Of a stretch of DNA of 64,000 nt, positions 1-45,941 are shown in pieces; the stretch's first letter is position 1, and each line of letters starts with the position of its first letter. The translations under genes and the position numbers were made by a program. Source of the DNA: an uncultured Methylococcaceae bacterium (GTDB lineage Bacteria; Pseudomonadota; Gammaproteobacteria; Methylococcales; Methylomonadaceae); NCBI GenBank assembly GCA_903917345.1, contig CAIXAE010000009.1, positions 124,001-188,000 on the forward strand. Direction: 5' to 3'. The notes under the pieces were generated by a model. That model saw only the letters and a list, made by a program, of their open reading frames with translations, made no database searches and was not told the origin of the DNA.

Positions 1-345
1 ATAGGGGCCTTTTTTATGCCTATAGAATTTAAATAAAACGATTTGCCATAAAACAATCCACAAACAGCACTATCAACAAAAAACAAACAATCTATGTTTA
101 AATATTAAATTTTGTAAATTAAACAAACTTAACTTTTTATAAGCCCCTGTAATCCGGTACATTATTCATTTATAATGTAACATTTTCAGACACTTACAAA
201 ATAAACACCTCCAAAATAATGTTAAAATAGTTATTGCAATTATAAAAAATAATTTATCATCAAAGCTGCGTACCGTACGAGCCTTGTTAGATAAATCATA
301 TTCTTAAACAAGTCTCCTAATTCAATCTGATTTAAGGAGTTGCCA

Positions 346-1011
346 ATGAACCTACCCAAATTTAAAAAGCGCTCGCCGGAGCAAGCGTTTTATTCAACGA
401 CATCATTTGCATCGCATGCGGCAAATGATTCATTTTCTGTTCAAACAGTCCAAAAAGTACAAACCAAATCGCGAGATAAACATAAGTACCATTGGGCCAT
501 TATGTTATTGCATTGGGGAACCTTGATCACTTTATTGGCTGCCGTAGGCACCGTTTTAGCATGGGACAATGCTGAAGATAGAGCATTAAGAGTGCTATTA
601 ATTGATTCGCACCGCCAAATCGGCATGCTAGTGTTAGTGTCTGTAGCAATAAGACTCGCCGTTAAAATGTTTACCGCAAAACCCACCCACCACCTCAACA
701 TGTCTAAAATTTTTAAGGTTTGTGCAGGCCTATGTCACACGGCACTCTACTTTATGATGGTTGCGTTACCCTTATTAGGCATAGGGCTTACTTTAGCGCA
801 TAACACACCCGTTACCGTCATGGGTTTAGTTAAGATTCCTAACTGGATTGGTGCAAATGCTGATTTGGCAGATACCTTAACTGATTACCACGTGCTCTTT
901 TCTTGGGCATTACTGGGTATTGTGAGTTTACATATGACGTCTGCCTTGATTCATCATTTTGTTATGAAAGACAAAACCTTAACGTCCATGATTCCTGGAA
1001 AAGTTAAATAG
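346..1011 (+). CDS. Cytochrome b561 domain-containing membrane protein
   Basis: Translation 'HYHWAIMLLHWGTLITLLAAVGTVLAW...LRVLLIDSHRQIGMLVLVSVAIRL...LHMTSALIHHF' has the multi-helix pattern with conserved His of the cyt b561 family; ATG at 346 follows 'aaggagt' better than the ORF-track ATG at 340. Confidence 0.85.
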   Translation: MNLPKFKKRSPEQAFYSTTSFASHAANDSFSVQTVQKVQTKSRDKHKYHWAIMLLHWGTLITLLAAVGTVLAWDNAEDRALRVLLIDSHRQIGMLVLVSVAIRLAVKMFTAKPTHHLNMSKIFKVCAGLCHTALYFMMVALPLLGIGLTLAHNTPVTVMGLVKIPNWIGANADLADTLTDYHVLFSWALLGIVSLHMTSALIHHFVMKDKTLTSMIPGKVK

Positions 1012-1278
1012 TTTTATAAAAATAAATTCAATATAACTGTTTTTTTTAAAAAAACAAATTGACCTATTCACCTTAATTATTTTAAATTTAATGTTAATAA
1101 ATTTTTAAATGCCTTATCAGACTAATAAACCAAGCACGCTTAACCTGCTCGGTTTATAAGCGCTCATGTCAGAATTGACTAGACTTTGTCATAAAAACTT
1201 AATTTATCAACACTATAAATAAGGTTATAGTACCCCCTACTTTATTAAAATTAAACTTTACCCACGAGGCATATATTT

Positions 1279-1629
1279 ATGAAACACCTATATTCGTTAA
1301 GCTTAAAAACTTTTATTGCTATCACCCTGAGTGTATTTTGTGTTTCTGTGCATGCTGATGCCGTTGATCCTGATGCAGCAAAAGCCTTTGCCAAACAAAA
1401 CAATTGCTTCAGATGCCATGGCGTTGATAAAGACAAAGACGGCCCAGCTTGGAACAAAATTGGCCCAAAATTTAAAGGCGACCCTAAAGGCGAAGAAAAG
1501 CTTCTACATCATTTAAGTTCTGGTGAAACCGCTAAATTCCCTGATGGACATGAAGAAGCACACATGATTTTAAAATCGGACGATCAAAAAGAAATTAAAA
1601 ACTTAGTCGACTGGATTCTTTCCCTTTAA
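1279..1629 (+). CDS. Monoheme c-type cytochrome (class I-like), exported
   Basis: N-terminal signal peptide; CFRCH heme motif ('NNCFRCHGVDKDKDGPAWNKIGPKFKGD'). Confidence 0.88.
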   Translation: MKHLYSLSLKTFIAITLSVFCVSVHADAVDPDAAKAFAKQNNCFRCHGVDKDKDGPAWNKIGPKFKGDPKGEEKLLHHLSSGETAKFPDGHEEAHMILKSDDQKEIKNLVDWILSL

Positions 1630-1675
1630 ATAAAAACCGCCTATGTCTTTTAAACCTTGCTGGAATTTTTATCTT

Positions 1676-2632
1676 ATGAATCTATTAATAAAATCTATCC
1701 TTCTGTGCGGACTCTTACTAACAACCGCACACGCAGAAAACACGACAACATCATTAGAAAATCCTTCCAGCAAGTCACCCGCTCAACAACTAGACAGAGA
1801 CTCAGTTTGTACCCGTTGTCACGATGAGAATGATAAAACCGCTGTACTTTCTATCGCTCAAACCCCGCATGGTAACAAAGCAGATTCTCGCACACCGTCT
1901 TGCCAATCATGCCATGGCGAAAGTGAAAAACATCTTACAAGCAAATCAAATCCACCCGATGTGATATTTGGCACAAAGAAAGGTGCTTATTCGCCTAGCG
2001 AGCCAAAAAGCCAAAATACAGCCTGCTTAACCTGTCATGACAAAGATCAAAATCGTACTCATTGGGAAAGCGGTGCTCACCAGTCTGCTGACGTAGCCTG
2101 CACCTCGTGTCATGTAACGCATACAGCACATGACAAAGTACGCGATAAAAGAACCCAGCCCGAAGTTTGCTTTACCTGTCACAAAGATCAAAAAGCGCAA
2201 ATACACAAGTTTTCGCATCACCCTATCATTGAAGGGAAAACCGCGTGTACTGACTGCCATAACCCGCATGGTTCAGCAGGCCCCAAATTGCTAAAGAAAA
2301 ACACAGTCAACGAAACGTGCCATACCTGCCATGCAGAAAAGCGTGGTCCATACCTATGGGAACACCAACCCGTAACGGAAGACTGTACTAACTGCCATAC
2401 ACCACACGGCTCTAATATCACACCGTTACTTAAGTCACGTCCACCGTTCTTATGTGACGAATGTCATGATGGCCCGCATCAAAGTAAAAATCCTGCCGCA
2501 GGCAATGCCGCTGGCATACAAAGTGGTTTATCTGGAGCGCCAAGCGCCAACTATACGGGCAGAGCGTGTATGAATTGCCACAGCATGGTCCACGGCTCTA
2601 ATGATCCAGCCGGCGCGTTATTGCAACGTTAA
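1676..2632 (+). CDS. mtrA: Decaheme c-type cytochrome, DmsE/MtrA/PioA family
   Basis: Ten CXXCH motifs counted (CTRCH, CQSCH, CLTCH, CTSCH, CFTCH, CTDCH, CHTCH, CTNCH, CDECH, CMNCH), signal peptide; ORF track opens at 1643 but ATG at 1676 (MNLLIKSILLCGLLL) gives the better signal peptide. Confidence 0.9.
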   Translation: MNLLIKSILLCGLLLTTAHAENTTTSLENPSSKSPAQQLDRDSVCTRCHDENDKTAVLSIAQTPHGNKADSRTPSCQSCHGESEKHLTSKSNPPDVIFGTKKGAYSPSEPKSQNTACLTCHDKDQNRTHWESGAHQSADVACTSCHVTHTAHDKVRDKRTQPEVCFTCHKDQKAQIHKFSHHPIIEGKTACTDCHNPHGSAGPKLLKKNTVNETCHTCHAEKRGPYLWEHQPVTEDCTNCHTPHGSNITPLLKSRPPFLCDECHDGPHQSKNPAAGNAAGIQSGLSGAPSANYTGRACMNCHSMVHGSNDPAGALLQR

Positions 2633-2651
2633 ACTTAACAGAGAGACAATC

Positions 2652-5048
2652 ATGAAAACTCACAATGAAAAAATGAAAGTCAAACAATTGGTTTTAGCGT
2701 TACGATTTGCACTGGTGGCATCGATTGCAATACCGACATTAACTTATGCGGATGATGACTTAGAAGCTTTAATTCATCCGACCAATACCCTTGATTTCGG
2801 TACTTTATATTCCACGCAAAGTTCAGCCAAATTTGGGGAATACAATGGCATCAATACTGAAGGGGCCTATGGATTGGGTGGCTTTGATATTCGTGGCGGT
2901 AAAGGCTACGACCCCGATAAAAACAGCGCCCTGCGCTGGAAACTAGGGGGAGCAAACCTTGGCACAACATCACGCTCACTTGATGGCTCGGTAAGTGACC
3001 AAGGTAAATGGAAATTAAACCTAAGCTATGATGAATTACAACATAACATCACCGATACCTATCAAACACCACTCATAGGTAGCCCCGGAGGGAATAATTT
3101 TACACTACCTCAAAACTTTGGTCCGATTGGCAAGGGTACAGCGACTAATACAAGAAGCTTAACACCTACCCAAAAAGGTGACCTTAATACTGAACGAGAA
3201 CACGTTGATCGAAAAAACGGATCGATTAGTACCTCTTATACTTTTAACGATCACTTAAGTGCTCAGCTTGATTATAATCACCTAGACCAATCTGGTGCTA
3301 AGCTTATTGGCACAGGTTCACAAGGCGGCATCAATGTAGGCAACGGCATTGGAAGTACGGGTATAAAAGGTGCGGGAGAAGCCAATAACATCCTAATGAA
3401 CCCGACCAGTTATCAGACTGATAACGTCAATGCTGCCCTTAACTGGACAGGCGATAAAGCCCATCTTACTGGCGGTTATTACGGTTCAATTTTTCATGAC
3501 GACTATAATAGCCTTAGCTGGCAAAGCGCTGTGGTCACTCCTGGTACTGGATCTGGCGCAAGCTCAACTTGCACAGGCTCCAATTGTTACACAAACAATA
3601 CGATGAGCACGGCGCCAAGCAATAGTTTGCATCAAGCAAATTTGACCGGCGGTTATAACTTTACTTCGACTACCAAGCTAGCAGGTGGCTTTTCTTACGG
3701 TTATAACGCGCAAAATAGTCTTTACGCACCCACTAATATCACCCAAGTTAATAACACAAAAGCAAACATGCTTTGGGGCGCATTACCTTTTTCCTCACTC
3801 AATGGCGTTGTGGAAACTAAACATGGCGACTTAAAGCTAACAAATCAGAGCATTAAGGACCTTAGTTTAAATGCAGGCTTTAAATTTAATGAACGTGACA
3901 ACCAAACTGATTCAGCTATTTACCTCTATAGAGCCATAAACTCGAATGGAGCAAATAATGCGAACTATACGGGCATTAATACCCCCTACAGCAACAGGAA
4001 AACCCAATTCGAAGCGGGGGCATCCTACCACTTAACCAAAGCCCAAAATATAGCGCTAAATTATGATCATGAGATCATTAATCGTTGGTGTAATGCTGTG
4101 GTAGGTGGAGCTCAATGCCTTGCTAGCCCAACCAGTGACGAAGATAAAGTAAACTTAAGTTACCGCCTAAAAGCACTGGATAATGTCAATTTTAACGCGG
4201 GCTATACGTACGCAAATCGCCTCGCAAACTTCGACAAAAACTACCGCGCTAATTCTGGAAACTACGCCATCACCACTGTCGGCACCGCCAGCTCTGTTTT
4301 GAATGGGGGTAATTATTTAGATTATGTTGCCTACCCTTATGCAAATCGTAATCAAAATGTGGGCAAAGCCGGTGTTAATTGGCAAGTCACCCAAAAATTA
4401 GATTTAGGTTTAAATGGCCGTTACAGTTATGACCAATATGATGCGACTTTAGGTGTACAAAACGGCTATTCAACTGGTGTTAATGTAGATGCTACCTATA
4501 GCTACGCAGAAAATAGCAGTCTTTCTGGCTATTGGAGCTGGCAAAATGGCGAGAGAAATTTAAGTAATGGGGGTAACTTTGTTCCCACGCCCAGTCCAAG
4601 TCCTGGCATTGCGAACTCAGTACCTAATGGCGTCTGGAAGAACAAGCTACTAGACAACAGTAATACGTTTGGCCTACTTGCCAGACACGCGGGATTGTTA
4701 AATGGTAAACTTGAAATCATTGGCGATGCCTCTTATGCACTAGATGCAACAACCTACTCTACACAAGTGCCTTATAATCCTGCCTGTGGCGTTGCTACCT
4801 CATTAACGTGTGGGACTTTACCGGACATTAATAACAACTTGTTAAGCCTAAAACTTACCGGCAATTATAAAGTGCTTAAAAATGGTAAAGTCTCTTTAAC
4901 CTATCTTTACCAAGAGTTAAAAAGCACAGATTATTTTTACAACGGGCAACAACTGGGTTACACACCTAATACCCTCATGCCAACCAACCTACAACCACTT
5001 AGTTACGCGGTTAACGTCGTCGCACTTTCATACAGCTACGCGTTTTAA
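2652..5048 (+). CDS. mtrB: MtrB/PioB family decaheme-associated outer membrane beta-barrel
   Basis: ~800 aa with signal peptide, Tyr/Asn/Gly-rich alternating strands, C-terminal 'YSYAF' ending in Phe; immediately follows the decaheme gene. Confidence 0.88.
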   Translation: MKTHNEKMKVKQLVLALRFALVASIAIPTLTYADDDLEALIHPTNTLDFGTLYSTQSSAKFGEYNGINTEGAYGLGGFDIRGGKGYDPDKNSALRWKLGGANLGTTSRSLDGSVSDQGKWKLNLSYDELQHNITDTYQTPLIGSPGGNNFTLPQNFGPIGKGTATNTRSLTPTQKGDLNTEREHVDRKNGSISTSYTFNDHLSAQLDYNHLDQSGAKLIGTGSQGGINVGNGIGSTGIKGAGEANNILMNPTSYQTDNVNAALNWTGDKAHLTGGYYGSIFHDDYNSLSWQSAVVTPGTGSGASSTCTGSNCYTNNTMSTAPSNSLHQANLTGGYNFTSTTKLAGGFSYGYNAQNSLYAPTNITQVNNTKANMLWGALPFSSLNGVVETKHGDLKLTNQSIKDLSLNAGFKFNERDNQTDSAIYLYRAINSNGANNANYTGINTPYSNRKTQFEAGASYHLTKAQNIALNYDHEIINRWCNAVVGGAQCLASPTSDEDKVNLSYRLKALDNVNFNAGYTYANRLANFDKNYRANSGNYAITTVGTASSVLNGGNYLDYVAYPYANRNQNVGKAGVNWQVTQKLDLGLNGRYSYDQYDATLGVQNGYSTGVNVDATYSYAENSSLSGYWSWQNGERNLSNGGNFVPTPSPSPGIANSVPNGVWKNKLLDNSNTFGLLARHAGLLNGKLEIIGDASYALDATTYSTQVPYNPACGVATSLTCGTLPDINNNLLSLKLTGNYKVLKNGKVSLTYLYQELKSTDYFYNGQQLGYTPNTLMPTNLQPLSYAVNVVALSYSYAF

Positions 5049-38726: not shown

Positions 38727-38731
38727 GACAA

Positions 38732-38947
38732 TTAAGCCGCAATTCGACTTATGTTTGGACAACCTTTTTGAGTAGCCTGCCACAAATCATACTTAACTTG
38801 CATACTTAACCAAAACTCAGCAGAAGTTCCCAACCATAGCGATAATCTTAATGCCATATCAGCACTAATATTACTGTTTCCATTAAGAATTTTAGATAAG
38901 GTAACTCTAGAAACCTTTAATTCGCCTGCGGCAGTCGTTATAGACAT
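38732..38947 (-). pseudogene. HigA-family antitoxin, N-terminally truncated
   Basis: 'SITTAAGELKVSRVTLSKILNGNSNISADMALRLSLWLGTSAEFWLSMQVKYDLWQA' lacks the usual 'PPHPGE...' N-terminus. Confidence 0.7.
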
Positions 38948-39072
38948 AGACTCTGGTATCCATTCACAGAGATTGAATAATGCCCTCTCATATCACCTTT
39001 CAGTTCGTGCAACTGCCATGATGGTACATTAATATCATTCTTTGATTTAGCGTTATTAAGTGAAACAAGCAT
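38938..39072 (-). pseudogene. HigB/RelE-family toxin remnant, immediately upstream of the truncated HigA
   Basis: 'LVSLNNAKSKNDINVPSWQLHELKGDMRGHYSISVNG' matches the mid/C-terminal HigB pattern, then goes out of family sequence. Confidence 0.6.
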
Positions 39073-39079
39073 TGATGAT

Positions 39080-39436
39080 ATGGATATCCCTGGATTTAGA
39101 CTGCATTCATTAAAAGGTTTAGACAAGAACAGATGGTCAATCTGGGTGAATGGCAACTGGCGTGTTACATTTGAATTTATTAAAGAAGTATACCTGGTAC
39201 CTTTTGAAATCACAGGAAGACAACTCGCTTTTAAACTTGGCGTATCGCCTTCTACCTTAAGTCGCATTTTAAATGCAAACAGTAGCATCAGCTCAGAAAT
39301 GGCCTTACGTCTTTCTAAGGCTCTGGGTCGATCACCAGAAAGTTGGTTAGCTATGCAAGATAACTACGACCTTTGGCATGCCAGACAAACAGTTAATCTT
39401 GATAACGTAGAAAAGATAGAATTTAAAGCTGCATAA
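39080..39436 (+). CDS. HigB(C-terminal part)-HigA in-frame fusion remnant
   Basis: 'DIPGFRLHSLKGLDKNRWSIWVNGNWRVTFEF' (HigB) runs directly into 'IKEVYLVPFEITGRQLAFKLGVSPSTLSRILNANSSISSEMALRLSKALGRSPESWLAMQDNYDLW' (HigA); HigB-like codons also read upstream of the ATG (FDLALLSETSIDDM). Confidence 0.7.
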   Translation: MDIPGFRLHSLKGLDKNRWSIWVNGNWRVTFEFIKEVYLVPFEITGRQLAFKLGVSPSTLSRILNANSSISSEMALRLSKALGRSPESWLAMQDNYDLWHARQTVNLDNVEKIEFKAA

Positions 39437-39449
39437 CAAATAATATCTA

Positions 39450-39536
39450 GATCGACTGATTGCCGCAACGGCACTCGCTAATCAAAGACCTCTTATTACT
39501 GCTGATGAAAAAATTAAGAACTACGCCGGGTATTAA
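39450..39536 (+). pseudogene. C-terminal remnant of a PIN-domain (VapC-like) toxin
   Basis: Hand translation: DRLIAATALANQRPLITADEKIKNYAGY*, a typical PIN-domain C-terminal pattern; in-frame stop at 39441. Confidence 0.6.
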
Positions 39537-39584
39537 ATTTATAGGGTGATTTATTTATTGCAGTCGTAAAACAAACAACGAGCA

Positions 39585-39870
39585 TCATTTAATAGTGGAC
39601 TGATTTAAGTTTACTCTGACCCCAGCTATTATTTTAGGTGCTTCACCATTAAATTTAGCAAAGCCCATTTCTTTAGCTTTATTATCCAGTGCATCAGGGC
39701 ACCCAAATTTCTTGCCGTGTTTTTTAGTTGACTCTAATCCAGATTTAACTCGTTCACGAATCAAACTACGAACAAATTCTGCCAATGAGCCAAAAATATG
39801 AAATATCAATTTACCCGTAGGTAGTATCAATGTTTTCAGTAATGGCAATGTTGGTTTTTTTTGTAGATTG
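39585..39870 (-). pseudogene. Serine recombinase (resolvase/invertase) fragment with a frameshift
   Basis: 'PTGKLIFHIFGSLAEFVRSLIRERVKSGLESTKKHGKKFGCP' in one frame; 'NIAITENIDTT' just upstream in a second frame; catalytic Ser region absent. Confidence 0.75.
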
Positions 39871-40020
39871 AAATATTCTGATATTTATAGTTGTCAATAA
39901 TTTTGTCGATATCGTGAACCACATGCCTTATGATTGGGGACTAAAGTTATTGGTTAGCAATTATTAGTAGTGCTTCAAATCGTAACACTCTAGGCTAAAT
40001 AGATAACCCCCCTTTGTACA

Positions 40021-40995
40021 ATGGAGCTACAAATGTGTGAAGAATTGAAGAATTTGCCAGATCTAAAACTTTTTTTAGGTTTCCCTGAAAAACTTTCAAC
40101 AATATCAAATGTTGCTAGTGCACTTCAATCTTTCGAAACTGCTATTTACTGCATTGCTCTTGGCAGGTGGCCAGCTACAGTTGGACTAGTTTGGCAAGCA
40201 AATGAGCTGTTACTTCAATACCTTTACAAGGGCTCCTTGGACGAAAATTCTACGATGGCAGCAATGAAAAAGCATTTAGACGAAAAAAAGGTATCTAACG
40301 ATCTAAATAAGGCAGCACATAAACTCCGAATAACAAGAAATGATTTTATGCACACTGGCTTCTCACCAAAAGATGACCTTTTATCAATTCGAATGTTTTT
40401 TGAAGCCGGTGTGCCATATTTTGACAATCTACTCAAAACAGCATTTGAATGTAATGTATATGATTTTTGTGGCACAGGAAACACAAGCAAATGGTTTTGG
40501 GATATTTACAGGAATACTAGAAAGTTAACCTTGAATAGAATTAAAAATGACGACAAATATGCACTAAATGCGACAAATCTGTTTGTTCGTGCTTGCTATA
40601 AAATTGTGTCCACAGGAGGTCGATTCGAAGATTTTGTATTTTCATATAATCCCTATGAATACTTTTTGAAAAATCATCTATACGGAGTCACGTATGAAAT
40701 CGAAAAGATGATAATTAAAGAGTTCATCGCTGATAATTTCAGTGAGGATGAATATGACTTAGTCTGGCTAAATATCAACTGCGATATTTGTTCAACTGAA
40801 CTGATAGGTATATGTGAACGGGACGAAAATGATAATTTTGTTAATCATACCGCCTTTGGTTGTGCTAAATGTGGCTACTCAGAAAAAGCTCAAGATGCAG
40901 TAAATTGTTTCCTAAGCAACCCCATTAACAAAAATAGCAACATTGAAAGAAATTTTGATAACTTAATTCTTGTAACAGATAGAGAATCATTTTAA
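40021..40995 (+). CDS. Uncharacterised protein with HEPN-like Rx4H motif and C-terminal zinc-ribbon
   Basis: Helical N-terminal region with 'HKLRITRNDFMHTGF' (R-N-D-F-M-H); C-terminal CDIC...CAKC pairs; 324 aa. Confidence 0.6.
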   Translation: MELQMCEELKNLPDLKLFLGFPEKLSTISNVASALQSFETAIYCIALGRWPATVGLVWQANELLLQYLYKGSLDENSTMAAMKKHLDEKKVSNDLNKAAHKLRITRNDFMHTGFSPKDDLLSIRMFFEAGVPYFDNLLKTAFECNVYDFCGTGNTSKWFWDIYRNTRKLTLNRIKNDDKYALNATNLFVRACYKIVSTGGRFEDFVFSYNPYEYFLKNHLYGVTYEIEKMIIKEFIADNFSEDEYDLVWLNINCDICSTELIGICERDENDNFVNHTAFGCAKCGYSEKAQDAVNCFLSNPINKNSNIERNFDNLILVTDRESF

Positions 40996-41040
40996 TAAAA
41001 TCGAAATTAACAAAAGTCACTGCGTTCGCTGGTCTATTGC

Positions 41041-41421
41041 TTACGGATGATTCTTAAGACGCCATAAATTATATTCATCCTCTTCTTCTGGTCGAATATA
41101 GCCATTCTTTTTCTCTTTAATTTTCGTCCAATCGCTTTTTGTTAGCTTAGGGCCACTCACATCAAGGTATCCATAGTTTTGATCAGGCAACCTATCCATT
41201 TTACCGATATAGTAATGATAACCACCTTCAGATTATCTTCTAGCAGGAAACTCTGTATCACAGTAATCTAAAAGAATTCGTAAGCTATCGTTATTCTTAG
41301 CATCTTTTGCAGCTTGAACTGAACATTCCTCATAATCTTTAGGACTAAAGATTGACCAAGCTGGAGCAGCATTAGATATTAGACTTAAACTGATTATTAA
41401 CAGTATATCTATTCCTTCCAT
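41041..41421 (-). pseudogene. Small exported protein interrupted by an in-frame TAA (41233-41235)
   Basis: 41233-41421 encodes a hydrophobic leader + '...FSPKDYEECSVQAAKDAKNNDSLRILLDYCDTEFPARR*'; the same frame continues open for 63 codons 'SEGGYHYYIGKMDRLPDQNYGYLDVSGPKLTKSDWTKIKEKKNGYIRPEEEDEYNLWRLKNHP*' to 41041. Confidence 0.55.
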
Positions 41422-41526
41422 ACATTTACAAAATTAAACCGCAGTATTCAATTACAAATCACAAAGGGAATGCAAGTCAAATAATACAATTTCATGGACA
41501 GTTTTTTTACGAAAAATCATTAAATA

Positions 41527-43521
41527 TTAAAAATCTCGCACTGCACAAAATACTGCTGTTGCGCCTTTATCGTGATTGTATTGATTGCTTCGGGTTTCGA
41601 TGTTCCAGGCCCACACCCATGATATATTGTATTCCGTAGAAATCCAGAAATTCGAGCCTAATAGAGCACTGACTGTCTTTTGTTTATACAGAATTTCTAA
41701 CTCACCTTTGGTTGGCAATCTCCATTCTTTATCATAAGTTTTTATTAAATTATTTAATTCTGCCCAAGTTACAAGTGTTGTATCATTTTTTTTGACTGAT
41801 ATGCCATGTTGTCCTGAGCTATCAAGATAAAAGACAATACTGCCATCTGATAATATGTCACCTAACTTGTAAATAATTAATTGGGTCTGACTAACCTTTG
41901 TTTCTAAAATTTGATCGAAAAGAAAGCTACGTACAGCCCGTGCACGGTTAGCATAAGACTTAAAACTGGATATTTGGTTACCATCGTCAAAACTATAAAG
42001 CCACGCACCTTTTATACTACTTTCCAAAGAACTCCAATAAAAGTTAGGTGAAAAATCACCAATAATTGACCTTTGTTCAAATAATAATGTCATTTCATTC
42101 ATCGTTGGAAGATGCCATTCTAGACCATATTCATTTGCCACTTGATTAGCTTGGTTCCAAGTCACTTTATTAGGAATATCTTTTTTTTGTACGGCTAAAC
42201 CATGCTTTTGTGAATTATCAATGTAGAAGATAATGCTATCGTCAGGTAATGTGTCACCAATCTTATAATCATTTGTGTCCTGTTGAGAACTGTCATTTTT
42301 TATAGCTATACTGCTATCTACATGATTACGAATGGGTCTTACATTAACTGACTTAATCGCGGGCAAGATGTCTTTTTTATCTACTCTTTTCCCATTAAGA
42401 AACAATTTCTTCAAAATCTTTTGCGCATCCTGATTATTTTGCTCCGCGGCTTTATTAAACCAATAGAACGCTTCGTCATTATTTTGCTCAATGCCGGTGC
42501 CGTGCAAATACATTTCACCTAATTTATATTCTGCGGGCGCAAAATTCTGTTGAGCTGCTTCATGAAACCAGTAAACAGCTTCATCATGATCTTCATCTGC
42601 GCCTTCGGCGTTAAAATGCATAAGACCTAATTGATATTGGCTCTCGGTATGTCCTAAATCAGCTAATTGACTAAATAGTTGTATTGCTTGGATATATTTT
42701 CTATGCGTATGAAGTGTTTTAGCTTTTAAAAAAGTATCATTTGTAATAAATTCGTAATCTAATTCATTTAACCGTTCTTCAACTGCGTCGTCGATTCCAT
42801 TATTAACAGCAATTTTAGAGGGATGCCATAACAACACATTATTGGATGTAAAATCATAATCCGTTGCTCTACATATACGAGCAATTCTAGCCTGAGTTAA
42901 AGCATTACCCTCAGAAAGCCCCTGACACTTATAAGTATCTACAATTGCATTCCACCAATTACTTTGGTGATAAGTATCTAAAATTTTTGTTGCTTTAACA
43001 GGGCCGATGTTAGGACAACCTTTATAACCATCCGTAGAATCGCCAGTAAGAGTCTGATATAAATGAAATCTATCCGCTTCTAGCTCACTAATATATTGTG
43101 GCTGAATATCTTTATTTGGGTTATATAACCAACCAGGAATTGTTCGCATATCCTTATCTTCAGAGACTATTATTTTTTTACCCTGAATTTTTGTTGGATG
43201 CGTACTTAGGATGCCCATAACATCGTCGGCCTCTAAGTTCTCATAAATAATTGACGTATAGTTTTGGGTCAAATGCAGTTTGACTGCATCTAAATGAACA
43301 GGTCTTTCAATATCTTTACGATTGTGTTTATATGAAGGCAATAAGTGTTTACGCCAATTATTTTTATCACTAAGACATATTAAAGCTTCATCGGCATTTA
43401 GAATATCTATGTATCGATTGATAATATTGCCAGCCTTTCTGTTGGCGTCATAGACACTTTCATTTAATAAGGCACATTTATACGCAATAATATCTGCGTC
43501 TATCAATAATGTTATTCTCAT
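41527..43521 (-). CDS. Phage-type 5'-3' exonuclease (FEN/PIN fold) fused to Sel1-like repeats and two Lcl/DUF1566 domains
   Basis: N-term: 'LLIDADIIAYKCA', 'LEADDVMGI', 'VSEDKDMRTIPG', 'LTGDSTDGYKGCPNIGPVKATKIL'; middle: 'ESQYQLGLMHFNAEGADEDHDEAVYWFHEAAQQNFAPAEYKLGEMYLHGTGIEQNNDEAFYWFNKAAEQ'; C-term: two copies of 'YKxGDxLxDxSIxFYxDxSxxHGxxVxKxD...VTW...EWxLPTxxExxxLxxQ'. Confidence 0.85.
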   Translation of the reverse strand: MRITLLIDADIIAYKCALLNESVYDANRKAGNIINRYIDILNADEALICLSDKNNWRKHLLPSYKHNRKDIERPVHLDAVKLHLTQNYTSIIYENLEADDVMGILSTHPTKIQGKKIIVSEDKDMRTIPGWLYNPNKDIQPQYISELEADRFHLYQTLTGDSTDGYKGCPNIGPVKATKILDTYHQSNWWNAIVDTYKCQGLSEGNALTQARIARICRATDYDFTSNNVLLWHPSKIAVNNGIDDAVEERLNELDYEFITNDTFLKAKTLHTHRKYIQAIQLFSQLADLGHTESQYQLGLMHFNAEGADEDHDEAVYWFHEAAQQNFAPAEYKLGEMYLHGTGIEQNNDEAFYWFNKAAEQNNQDAQKILKKLFLNGKRVDKKDILPAIKSVNVRPIRNHVDSSIAIKNDSSQQDTNDYKIGDTLPDDSIIFYIDNSQKHGLAVQKKDIPNKVTWNQANQVANEYGLEWHLPTMNEMTLLFEQRSIIGDFSPNFYWSSLESSIKGAWLYSFDDGNQISSFKSYANRARAVRSFLFDQILETKVSQTQLIIYKLGDILSDGSIVFYLDSSGQHGISVKKNDTTLVTWAELNNLIKTYDKEWRLPTKGELEILYKQKTVSALLGSNFWISTEYNISWVWAWNIETRSNQYNHDKGATAVFCAVRDF

Positions 43522-43527
43522 GAACTT

Positions 43528-45378
43528 TTACTCATAAATAATCTGCCCTCTTAAATCCCTCACCAACACCCTATGAAACGCCAACCAAGTCTCATGGTCT
43601 TTGCTGTTACATACAGCTGAAGGTTTATTGATGGTTAGGGCTCTTTTTACGTTAACCTTATTAGCATCAAGTTGGTAAGTGGCGTCATATTCAATACCGT
43701 TATCATTAAAGTGTGCTGGTTCGGGTATTTTGGTCACTTTTACGTTATTAGGAAAGTTAAGCACGATTGAATCTTCTGTGTAATAAGATCTGCACACAAA
43801 AGGAAACTCTACTGAGTCATCATACTTAGTAACGGATTTTTTATGTATTATGCTGTTTGCTAAGCCATAAGGCACTGTCATGGCACCGTTACCCGGCATA
43901 TTGCTGACGGGTTCTAACATAAACTCACTACTATATTTAAAGGGTGTATTTAAATCATAAACATCAGTAGGCGTAAATGACCCTGTACCCAGTTCACCAT
44001 TAATTGTAAAGTAGTGATTCTCTAACACCTCTTTATTCTGACCTTGATAAGATTCAAATTCATTTCTAGCGGTAAACTCTTTACTGCCACTCGAACTTAC
44101 GTCATGTGTGCCTTTGATGGTTCCGTCTGGCTGTATATCGAGTTTTATGTGATTAATTGATTGTTCGTCTCGGCTGTTAAAGGTTTTTGTGTGGCCGATT
44201 GCCTTAAGTGCCGTGAGTAAAGTGGGTTTATCCATGGCGGACTCAACCAAGATACCGAAAACATTAAGTCCTCGTGTGGAGTCTACGTATAGTTGCCATT
44301 TAGGCAAATAGGTGATCACATGATCAAAAGCACCAAATGAACCCAAGGTGGGTATTTTGTACTTTCTATCAGAGTTGATTAATGCGCTACTCGCTTCAAT
44401 ATGTTTGGCTTTTAAGAGTGTAATCAATAAATTGTTATGATCTTTACAGTCGCCAAAACGTTTTTGCAGGATATAGCTGGCCTCATGCGGAGTGTAATCA
44501 TGTACGCCCAAAGTATCAGACACATAACGTATTTCTTTACTGACCCAGTTGTAAATCGCTTTGGCTTGTTGATAATCATCATCTATGCCTTTTGTAATAC
44601 TATCTGCTAAGGCTTGTATTTCTGGAGTTACCTTAGCCTTTGGTGCTGCCGCATTTTCAAATAGCGTGGCTAAGGCAGTGGGATCTGCTAAAGTCGTAAA
44701 ATGTAGGTGGGGGGCAAAGTCTGAATAATCCACTTCATTAGCTTCTTCTTTCAATGCTTGTGGGTGTGAGTAGGTGTATTGATAGCGTAATTGGCCGTCT
44801 TTAGCATCACTGAGACGCCCCCCATTAAGTTCTTTTATATCAATGTATAGTTTTAGACCTTTGGGGTATTGGATATTGTATTCCACATAACGATTATCCG
44901 TGTGTGGGTTAAACGGTACGAACAAATCATATTGGTGTTTAAACAGTGTCTTGTGAATTGTATTTATCGCTTTGTAATAAGTCTTGCTACCTACCACTAC
45001 GTTGGGGTAAATAATTTGCACTGTTTTAGAGTCGTCTATACTGGCAGTACCATTTCCACTTGCATCTTTGGTAATAATATTATTCTTAGCCACGGCAATA
45101 CGTTTGCCATCAGGCAATATTGTGTAGGCTTCTGTGACTTTAACACTTACATCTTCTGCACTATAAGAAATTTCATCATAGGCATAACCAATCGCGGCTT
45201 GCTGAGTATTGTATAGAGTGGTTAACTCTTGGACTTTTTCGCTAGTCCCATCGGCATTAATTTTAATGCTAAAGATTAACCTCTCAGTCGTGTAGGGGGT
45301 ATCAATAACTTTGGCTTGGGTGGAAGTAGAGTTAAAGCCTAGAGTGATTATAAAAAAAGATGTTAGTAATTTGCGCAT
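43528..45378 (-). CDS. Exported DUF3857 + transglutaminase-like domain protein
   Basis: Signal peptide; 'YNWVSKEIRYVSDTLGVHDYTPHEASYILQKRFGDCKDHNNLLITLLKAKHIEA' transglutaminase core with 'GDCKDH', 'HVITYLPKWQLYVDST'. Confidence 0.85.
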   Translation of the reverse strand: MRKLLTSFFIITLGFNSTSTQAKVIDTPYTTERLIFSIKINADGTSEKVQELTTLYNTQQAAIGYAYDEISYSAEDVSVKVTEAYTILPDGKRIAVAKNNIITKDASGNGTASIDDSKTVQIIYPNVVVGSKTYYKAINTIHKTLFKHQYDLFVPFNPHTDNRYVEYNIQYPKGLKLYIDIKELNGGRLSDAKDGQLRYQYTYSHPQALKEEANEVDYSDFAPHLHFTTLADPTALATLFENAAAPKAKVTPEIQALADSITKGIDDDYQQAKAIYNWVSKEIRYVSDTLGVHDYTPHEASYILQKRFGDCKDHNNLLITLLKAKHIEASSALINSDRKYKIPTLGSFGAFDHVITYLPKWQLYVDSTRGLNVFGILVESAMDKPTLLTALKAIGHTKTFNSRDEQSINHIKLDIQPDGTIKGTHDVSSSGSKEFTARNEFESYQGQNKEVLENHYFTINGELGTGSFTPTDVYDLNTPFKYSSEFMLEPVSNMPGNGAMTVPYGLANSIIHKKSVTKYDDSVEFPFVCRSYYTEDSIVLNFPNNVKVTKIPEPAHFNDNGIEYDATYQLDANKVNVKRALTINKPSAVCNSKDHETWLAFHRVLVRDLRGQIIYE

Positions 45379-45540
45379 TAGATTATTTTAATGGTAAGGC
45401 TTTAATGAAACTTTACCATAATTACCCCTGTCTGGTTAGTTAAGATTGGGGGCTAATATAATCAAGGGTAACGACAAGTTATGACGCTTATTTAATGATT
45501 TTCGGAGTGTAACTTTGCCATGAAACTAGCGCAAACACTT

Positions 45541-45552
45541 CACCTGCAGGTG
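45541..45552. repeat. 12-bp perfect palindrome CACCTGCAGGTG beside the tandem array
   Basis: cacctgcaggtg is self-complementary. Confidence 0.5.
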
Positions 45553-45567
45553 CAATGCTTCGACCTC

Positions 45568-45840
45568 GTGGTACAGACTCTAGACCACCTTGCATAATAC
45601 CTGTGCGTGCTTGCACAGACACTCGACGTCCACGCACAGCACCTATGCATGCTTGCACAGACACCCGACCTCCACGCACAATACCTATGCATGCTTGCAC
45701 AGACACTCGACCTCCACGCACAATACCTATGCATGCTTGCACAGACACTCGACCTCCACGCACAGTACCTGTGCTAGCTTGCACAGACATTCGACCATCT
45801 CACACAATATCTGTGCGTGCTTGCAGAGAGTCGAACACAT
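45568..45840. repeat. 42-bp tandem repeat array (minisatellite), ~5 clear units plus degenerate edges
   Basis: Units begin at 45610, 45652, 45694, 45736, 45778 and partial 45820; consensus cttgcacagacactcgacctccacgcacaatacctatgcatg. Confidence 0.95.
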
Positions 45841-45941
45841 AATTTTAATCATCCCCTAGCGTTAGAGCCCTCTCAATTTAAGTCATATTTTGTGTTATCC
45901 TACTCGGCTAAATTTTATTCAATAAATTCTCATATCACTTT

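Follow-up and report, generated by a model that had tools for sequence, protein, structure and literature searches.

A T7 gp6-type phage exonuclease fused to Sel1 repeats and Lcl/DUF1566 modules in methanotrophic bacteria

The window analysed here, a stretch of 64,000 nucleotides from an uncultured Methylococcaceae bacterium, carries a gene for a protein of 664 amino acids that joins a complete phage-type 5′-3′ exonuclease, a solenoid of Sel1 repeats and two Lcl_C/DUF1566 modules (Table 1). A preliminary description of this DNA had proposed a single uninterrupted frame with such a layout, and both points were confirmed, the layout by domain searches against Pfam, PHROG and the PDB; the gene is read from the minus strand, while the plus strand of the same interval contains many stops. 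The exonuclease was detected by the Pfam models 5_3_exonuc_N (1.4e-11, residues 29-125) and 5_3_exonuc (5.4e-6, residues 151-188, under its own curated cut-off), presumably weakly because these models are centred on Pol I-type enzymes, and by PHROG 107 ('exonuclease'), which matched residues 3-256 at 1.5e-65. Two Sel1 repeats were found by Pfam at 2.8e-23, and Sel1 proteins of the PDB were matched by sequence down to 4.6e-58. Pfam Lcl_C matched two stretches (6.7e-14) and the whole protein exceeded the curated score of this model (52.6 bits vs 34.9); the second module by itself stays under the cut-off (28 bits, E 4e-6) and is retrieved with the first module as query at 39% identity (E 6.7e-21).

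Table 1. Features of the fusion gene, of its genomic setting and of a diversity-generating retroelement in a genome of the genus (positions are those of the window unless L255 is indicated).
Feature	Position	Strand	Basis
Whole fusion gene, 664 aa, T7 gp6-type exonuclease - Sel1 - Lcl - Lcl	41527..43521	-	ORF, domain matches, orthologues in two other MAGs
Complete phage 5′-3′ exonuclease (autographivirus gp6) module, residues 1-237	42811..43521	-	PHROG 107, tblastn, alignment, pLDDT 88-97, FEN fold
Active-site D8-A-D10	43492..43500	-	D8, D10 invariant incl. T7 gp6
Active-site E97-A-D99-D100	43222..43233	-	E97, D99, D100 invariant
Active-site D122-K-D124	43150..43158	-	invariant
D161-S-T-D164, acids starting the H3TH region	43030..43041	-	D161, D164 invariant
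Low-confidence linker, exonuclease to Sel1, residues 238-257	42751..42810	-	pLDDT <50 over 237-257; longer in G002
Sel1 repeat solenoid, about residues 258-384	42370..42750	-	Pfam Sel1; PDB Sel1 proteins; helical pairs in model
Low-confidence linker, residues 385-417	42271..42369	-	pLDDT <50
First Lcl_C/DUF1566 module, residues 418-534	41920..42270	-	Pfam Lcl_C; Legionella Lcl 8q4e by sequence and fold
Second Lcl_C/DUF1566 module, residues 553-664	41530..41865	-	Lcl_C second stretch; match to first module
DUF3857 + transglutaminase core gene, signal-peptide-like start, same orientation, upstream of fusion	43528..45378	-	6 nt from fusion
Variable insertion holding the fusion, 7.2 kb, between core genes oppDF and trpF	38727..45941	.	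Comparison with G034, G027, G029; GC
Variable repeat of DGR (L255, genome G021)	291-422		
Avd-like ORF of DGR (L255)	655-1026		
Template repeat of DGR (L255)	1210-1341		
Reverse transcriptase (RT) of DGR (L255)	1321-2838		

An AlphaFold2 model built from 19 sequences reached pLDDT values of 88-97 in the exonuclease and, in most of the Sel1 part, 70-90, while the Lcl modules scored lower, with a pTM of 0.43, an unreliable relative placement of the domains and low confidence in the Lcl part. A Foldseek comparison of this model with the PDB retrieved ExoIX, T5 FEN, other FENs, Sel1 proteins and the C-terminal domain of Legionella Lcl (8q4e). The protein has no visible signal peptide, and with the J-domain-Lcl proteins described below as a precedent a cytoplasmic location is a reasonable prediction.

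By sequence and tree, the exonuclease is assigned to the T7 gp6 family. The tblastn searches matched 2,222 phage records, the best of them Autographiviridae exonucleases at up to 45% identity; residues 1-237 share 41-50% identity with the nearer phage enzymes (44-50% in the alignment) and 31% with T7 gp6, to which they are homologous over their full length. One homologue, that of LUZ100, is annotated as 'Similar to phage T7 Gp6', and the closest IMG/VR relative (49% identity) lies on a contig of ~40 kb with a DNA polymerase gene upstream. The best-matching phage homologues are stand-alone genes, of ~245 aa in the nearest cases and in several of them close to a DNA polymerase gene, whereas the gene of the window is not a separate gene in a phage replication module but a fused, accessory bacterial one with no phage genes recognised next to it. 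The acidic motifs quoted in the preliminary description proved to be a complete FEN-type set of active-site acids, since D8, D10, E97, D99, D100, D122, D124, D161 and D164 are all invariant in an alignment that sets the three bacterial copies against T7 gp6 and five further homologues from phages. The FEN fold and this acidic site are shared with the Pol I 5′ nuclease, ExoIX (Xni) and T5 FEN, but identity over the fold matches is only 13-19% and the fusion stays below the NCBIfam equivalog cut-offs. In the tree, the bacterial exonuclease domains group together with full support (100/100) and branch from within the phage sequences, with a placement of 99/92 inside a phage clade, so that a single capture from phage would be the simplest reading. 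The three fused copies lack a loop near residue 183 that is present in T7, S2B and L141, as well as a segment of ~14 aa near residue 22, which reads WGDG..W in many phages but is no firm marker because it is divergent in some phage ORFs too.

Three intact copies are known, all of them in MAGs or draft assemblies. Besides the one in the window, two MAGs labelled Crenothrix polyspora encode an exo-Sel1-Lclx3 protein of 815 aa (G002; exonuclease 79% identical to that of the window) and a protein of 600 aa without Sel1, in which the exonuclease is followed by Lcl and an unknown tail (G023; 70% identical), whereas in a fourth genome, G004, the gene survives as a relic interrupted by stops and by breaks of the frame. 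The fusion boundary is identical in the three MAGs. An assembly chimera was therefore rejected, given that two further MAG assemblies share this boundary and that the window copy lies inside a 222-kb contig; conservation across species indicates that the fusion is no assembly artefact. The preliminary description is supported in its claim of a new fusion whose nuclease site is intact. Its distribution is that of an accessory gene: four of 35 congeneric genomes have it, including the relic, and it is absent from 233 of the 237 genomes of the family searched, where weak matches correspond to frames of ~900 aa, the size of Pol I. No fusion was found in a sample of 387 genomes of the class, nor beyond G002 and G023 in 85,488 species genomes, in a pattern scan with two N-terminal peptides that distant fusions could escape.

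A phage-encoded fusion and a plasmid origin were also considered and rejected. None of the exonuclease ORFs of 85 phage or viral loci has a C-terminal fusion; few of them exceed 310 aa and the longest, of 403 aa, is extended at its N-terminus. Searching phages with the Sel1-Lcl part gave partial matches in ten records, none covering 80% of it, and a viral scan with whole-protein patterns gave no match, the patterns being probably too specific, while the alignment-based scan did yield relatives. The sole exonuclease match to a plasmid among the matches listed was that of Vibrio panuliri, which lacks the fusion, and no plasmid covers 80% of the query. In the literature, nothing relevant was found on gp6 domestication or on the combination of Sel1 and DUF1566.

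The exonuclease, Sel1 and Lcl parts are all under purifying selection. Between the window and G002, dN/dS (Nei-Gojobori, with dS of about 1-1.5) is 0.11 for the exonuclease, 0.18 for Sel1 and 0.21 and 0.33 for the Lcl modules, and comparison of the window with the other intact copies gives 0.11-0.13 for the exonuclease; every part of the fusion has therefore been kept. The C-terminal part changes faster, as its sequence, the number of Lcl modules (1-3) and the tail differ between orthologues.

The fusion lies in a variable insertion, of which most has a GC content of 33-40% vs 41-46% in the flanks, and which contains among others a HigB/HigA-like gene, a resolvase-like remnant, an unknown gene of 324 aa and the DUF3857-transglutaminase gene. 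The gap between oppDF and trpF measures 192 bp in G034 and 86 bp in G027, and in the closest relative, G029, it holds ~4.2 kb with other genes. No long direct repeats bound the insertion, and promoter and terminator scans stayed at chance level. Tandem units of 42 bp, open in several frames, were observed just upstream of trpF (45488-45842), with different versions in G029 and G021. Since the fusion starts only 6 nt past the stop of the DUF3857 gene, the two are likely to form an operon; the G023 fusion, too, is immediately preceded by a similar DUF3857 gene, of which the 3′ end is present. In G002, the upstream gene, 20 bp away, encodes a TM0106 RecB-like nuclease-helicase, and a DNA-binding gene of HTH/resolvase type follows downstream. 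The neighbours thus differ among the three loci and no conserved partner gene was found; nor was any integrase, terminase, capsid or plasmid replication gene recognised beside the three intact copies.

Other traits of these regions were recorded. DUF3857-transglutaminase genes of the genus are often found at contig ends (43528-45378 in the window; L077-L084, L095-L098), and their 3′ ends adjoin a varied cargo comprising the exonuclease fusion, cas1/cas2-like genes, a DnaK-like protein with IS66-like genes and a phage-type integrase, so these genes may mark recombination-prone sites. A stretch of 47 bp in the window (39842-39887) is 89% identical to the 3′ end of the nuclease-helicase gene of G002 (L026 4245-4291) and may be a trace of recombination. 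Downstream of the G023 fusion there are two genes of 807 and 331 aa (L027 1235-3658 and 195-1190, minus strand) without any family match.

In the same bacterial family, similar Lcl modules end J-domain, kinase-TM-Sel1, caspase-like, collagen-repeat and small secreted proteins, the names kinase, J-domain and caspase having been read from the sequences and not from a Pfam scan. The J-domain-Lcl, kinase-Sel1-Lcl and caspase-like-Lcl proteins have the same C-terminal type of Lcl as the fusion, with about 39-47% identity to its first module, but differ in their N-terminal domains, no nuclease being among those seen. The first of them, of about 340 aa, occurs in many genomes of the genus (L100 3365-4387, minus strand; L223-L236) and illustrates a cytoplasmic use of DUF1566; a Ser/Thr kinase-TM-Sel1-Lcl protein of 939 aa is encoded in a sister genus (L099 2501-5320, minus strand), and caspase-like proteins with a C-terminal Lcl/DUF1566 and a signal-peptide-like start in other members of the family (L237 313-1845 and L239 322-1836, plus strand). 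Lcl of Legionella, a protein with a solved structure for its DUF1566-containing domain, forms trimers and binds glycosaminoglycans; according to the authors of that work, DUF1566 could promote trimer formation (PMC11162425). The C-terminal domain of this protein (8q4e) shares the Lcl fold with 25% identity in the fold alignment, but Legionella Lcl carries collagen repeats and is an exported adhesin, trimeric and glycosaminoglycan-binding (PMC11162425), whereas the module of the fusion belongs to a nuclease in which no signal peptide is visible.

G021, a close relative within the genus, carries a textbook diversity-generating retroelement (DGR) targeting a DUF1566-type protein (L255, G021:C5), with an Avd-like ORF, an RT and a pair of 132-nt variable and template repeats whose 18 mismatches all fall at template adenines (18/18). 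DUF1566-type modules of the genus can therefore serve as variable ligand-binding domains. For the fusion gene itself, diversification by a DGR was rejected. No RT (RVT_1) was detected in the genomes with intact fusions (G000, G002 and G023), no hypervariability was seen in the fusion Lcl modules, and the end of the first module that matches the variable repeat is at least as well conserved as the remainder, with 28 of 39 residues conserved between the window and G002 vs 59% overall.

The preliminary description had read the fusion as a sensor-effector protein of immunity or conflict between bacteria. This idea is supported in part, as similar Lcl modules on J-domain, kinase and caspase-like proteins recall other sensor-effector arrangements; on the other hand, none of the PADLOC 2023 families matches the fusion, its neighbours include no known defence genes and its Lcl modules show no sign of being diversified. 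PADLOC gave no convincing defence match around the three loci, the helicase of G002 matching Mokosh models mainly over the generic helicase region. The DGR-diversified CLec antigen sensors of multicellular bacteria, which are fused to effectors (PMC10907252), have in common with the fusion an N-terminal catalytic domain and a C-terminal ligand-binding-type fold, but the fusion lacks a STAND/MoxR NTPase and no RT accompanies its intact copies; the resemblance to such CLec-tipped conflict proteins is one of layout only. A gp6-type exonuclease was not found in the excerpts of two accounts of these proteins (PMC10907252; PMC7159879). The patchy distribution of the gene, its variable location and the quicker change of its C-terminal arm fit a conflict role better than a housekeeping one, though other accessory genes show these traits too.

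Altogether, the evidence strongly suggests that an ancestor of these methanotrophs gained, in a single capture, the 5′-3′ exonuclease gene of a T7-like phage (autographivirus gp6), and that this gene was joined to a host-derived Sel1 and Lcl/DUF1566 set of a kind that elsewhere in the family is appended to signalling and protease proteins. From its intact site and the purifying selection, the product is predicted to be an active, cytoplasmic, metal-dependent nuclease of 5′-3′ exo/flap type. The Sel1-Lcl arm may bind a partner, such as a protein of the host or of a phage or else a glycan-like ligand, and thereby place, assemble or switch on the nuclease, although Lcl could equally serve oligomerisation or scaffolding instead of sensing. 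Its likeliest use would be that of an accessory nuclease against phages or mobile DNA, attacking free 5′ ends or replication intermediates of the invader; an anti-phage role is plausible and a reasonable guess. The reading as a whole, a captured phage nuclease under C-terminal recognition or scaffold control and used against invading DNA, is the one we tentatively prefer, at somewhat less than an even chance. Counted in its favour are the shared boundary, the nested clade, the lack of a C-terminal fusion among the phage and viral ORFs screened, the low dN/dS, the invariant acids and the FEN fold, together with the accessory, AT-rich character of the gene, its variable insertion, its variable C-terminal part, the related Lcl modules on J-domain, kinase-Sel1 and caspase-like proteins and the TM0106 helicase neighbour in G002. 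Counted against it are the lack of a PADLOC match to the fusion and of a known defence system around it, the differing neighbours of the three loci, the Lcl modules with no hypervariability, the low model confidence for these modules and the small number of intact copies, all from MAGs or draft assemblies. The bolder proposal of an undescribed kind of anti-phage effector, in which the replication and recombination exonuclease of a lytic phage would be turned on phages through an exchangeable Sel1-Lcl recognition arm, is doubtful.

T7 gp6 naturally acts in recombination according to record annotation, and the fusion might instead be a domesticated repair or recombination exonuclease, whose gp6 module would supplement the Pol I 5′ nuclease or a 5′ resection enzyme while Sel1-Lcl would do no more than scaffold it to a repair complex. 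The strong purifying selection on the exonuclease and the RecB-like nuclease-helicase 20 bp from the G002 fusion agree with such a role, but this helicase is not beside the window copy, the gene sits in a variable insertion, and a presence in only four of 35 congeneric genomes, with absence from 233 of 237 family genomes searched, makes it unlikely. The variable island, with its resolvase-like remnant and HigB/HigA-like gene, the differing neighbours and the HTH/resolvase-type gene downstream in G002 would rather be expected of cargo of a mobile element or satellite, in which the exonuclease serves replication of the element or competes with that of a phage, while Sel1-Lcl would tether it to a protein of the replisome; without a recognised integrase, terminase, capsid or plasmid replication gene beside the three copies, and without long direct repeats at the bounds of the insertion, this seems quite improbable.

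By analogy with the Legionella Lcl-CTD trimer, in which DUF1566 could promote trimer formation (PMC11162425), and given the fold match to 8q4e, tandem Lcl modules might trimerise into a multi-nuclease assembly, so that oligomerisation and not ligand sensing would control the nuclease. A number of modules varying from one to three is awkward for a fixed oligomer, and we give this possibility little weight. The least probable explanation, and one that we disfavour, is a chance chimera born from recombination between the Sel1 and Lcl genes abundant in the genus and the remnant of a phage, whose joined parts would have no function under selection together. One of the four copies (G004) is indeed a broken relic, but there are three intact long ORFs (664, 815 and 600 aa) in separate assemblies, and at a dS of about 1 each of the exonuclease, Sel1 and Lcl parts has a dN/dS far below 1.

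Exonucleases of the T7 gp6 type are familiar as lytic-phage genes. In the present case, bacteria have taken one over, preserved its active site and connected it to binding modules of their own, which are also found at the C-terminal end of their kinases, caspase-like and J-domain proteins. If the arm senses phage, the fusion would represent a new route for reusing phage replication enzymes in immunity; if it does not, the fusion would still be a clean case of the domestication of a lytic-phage nuclease.
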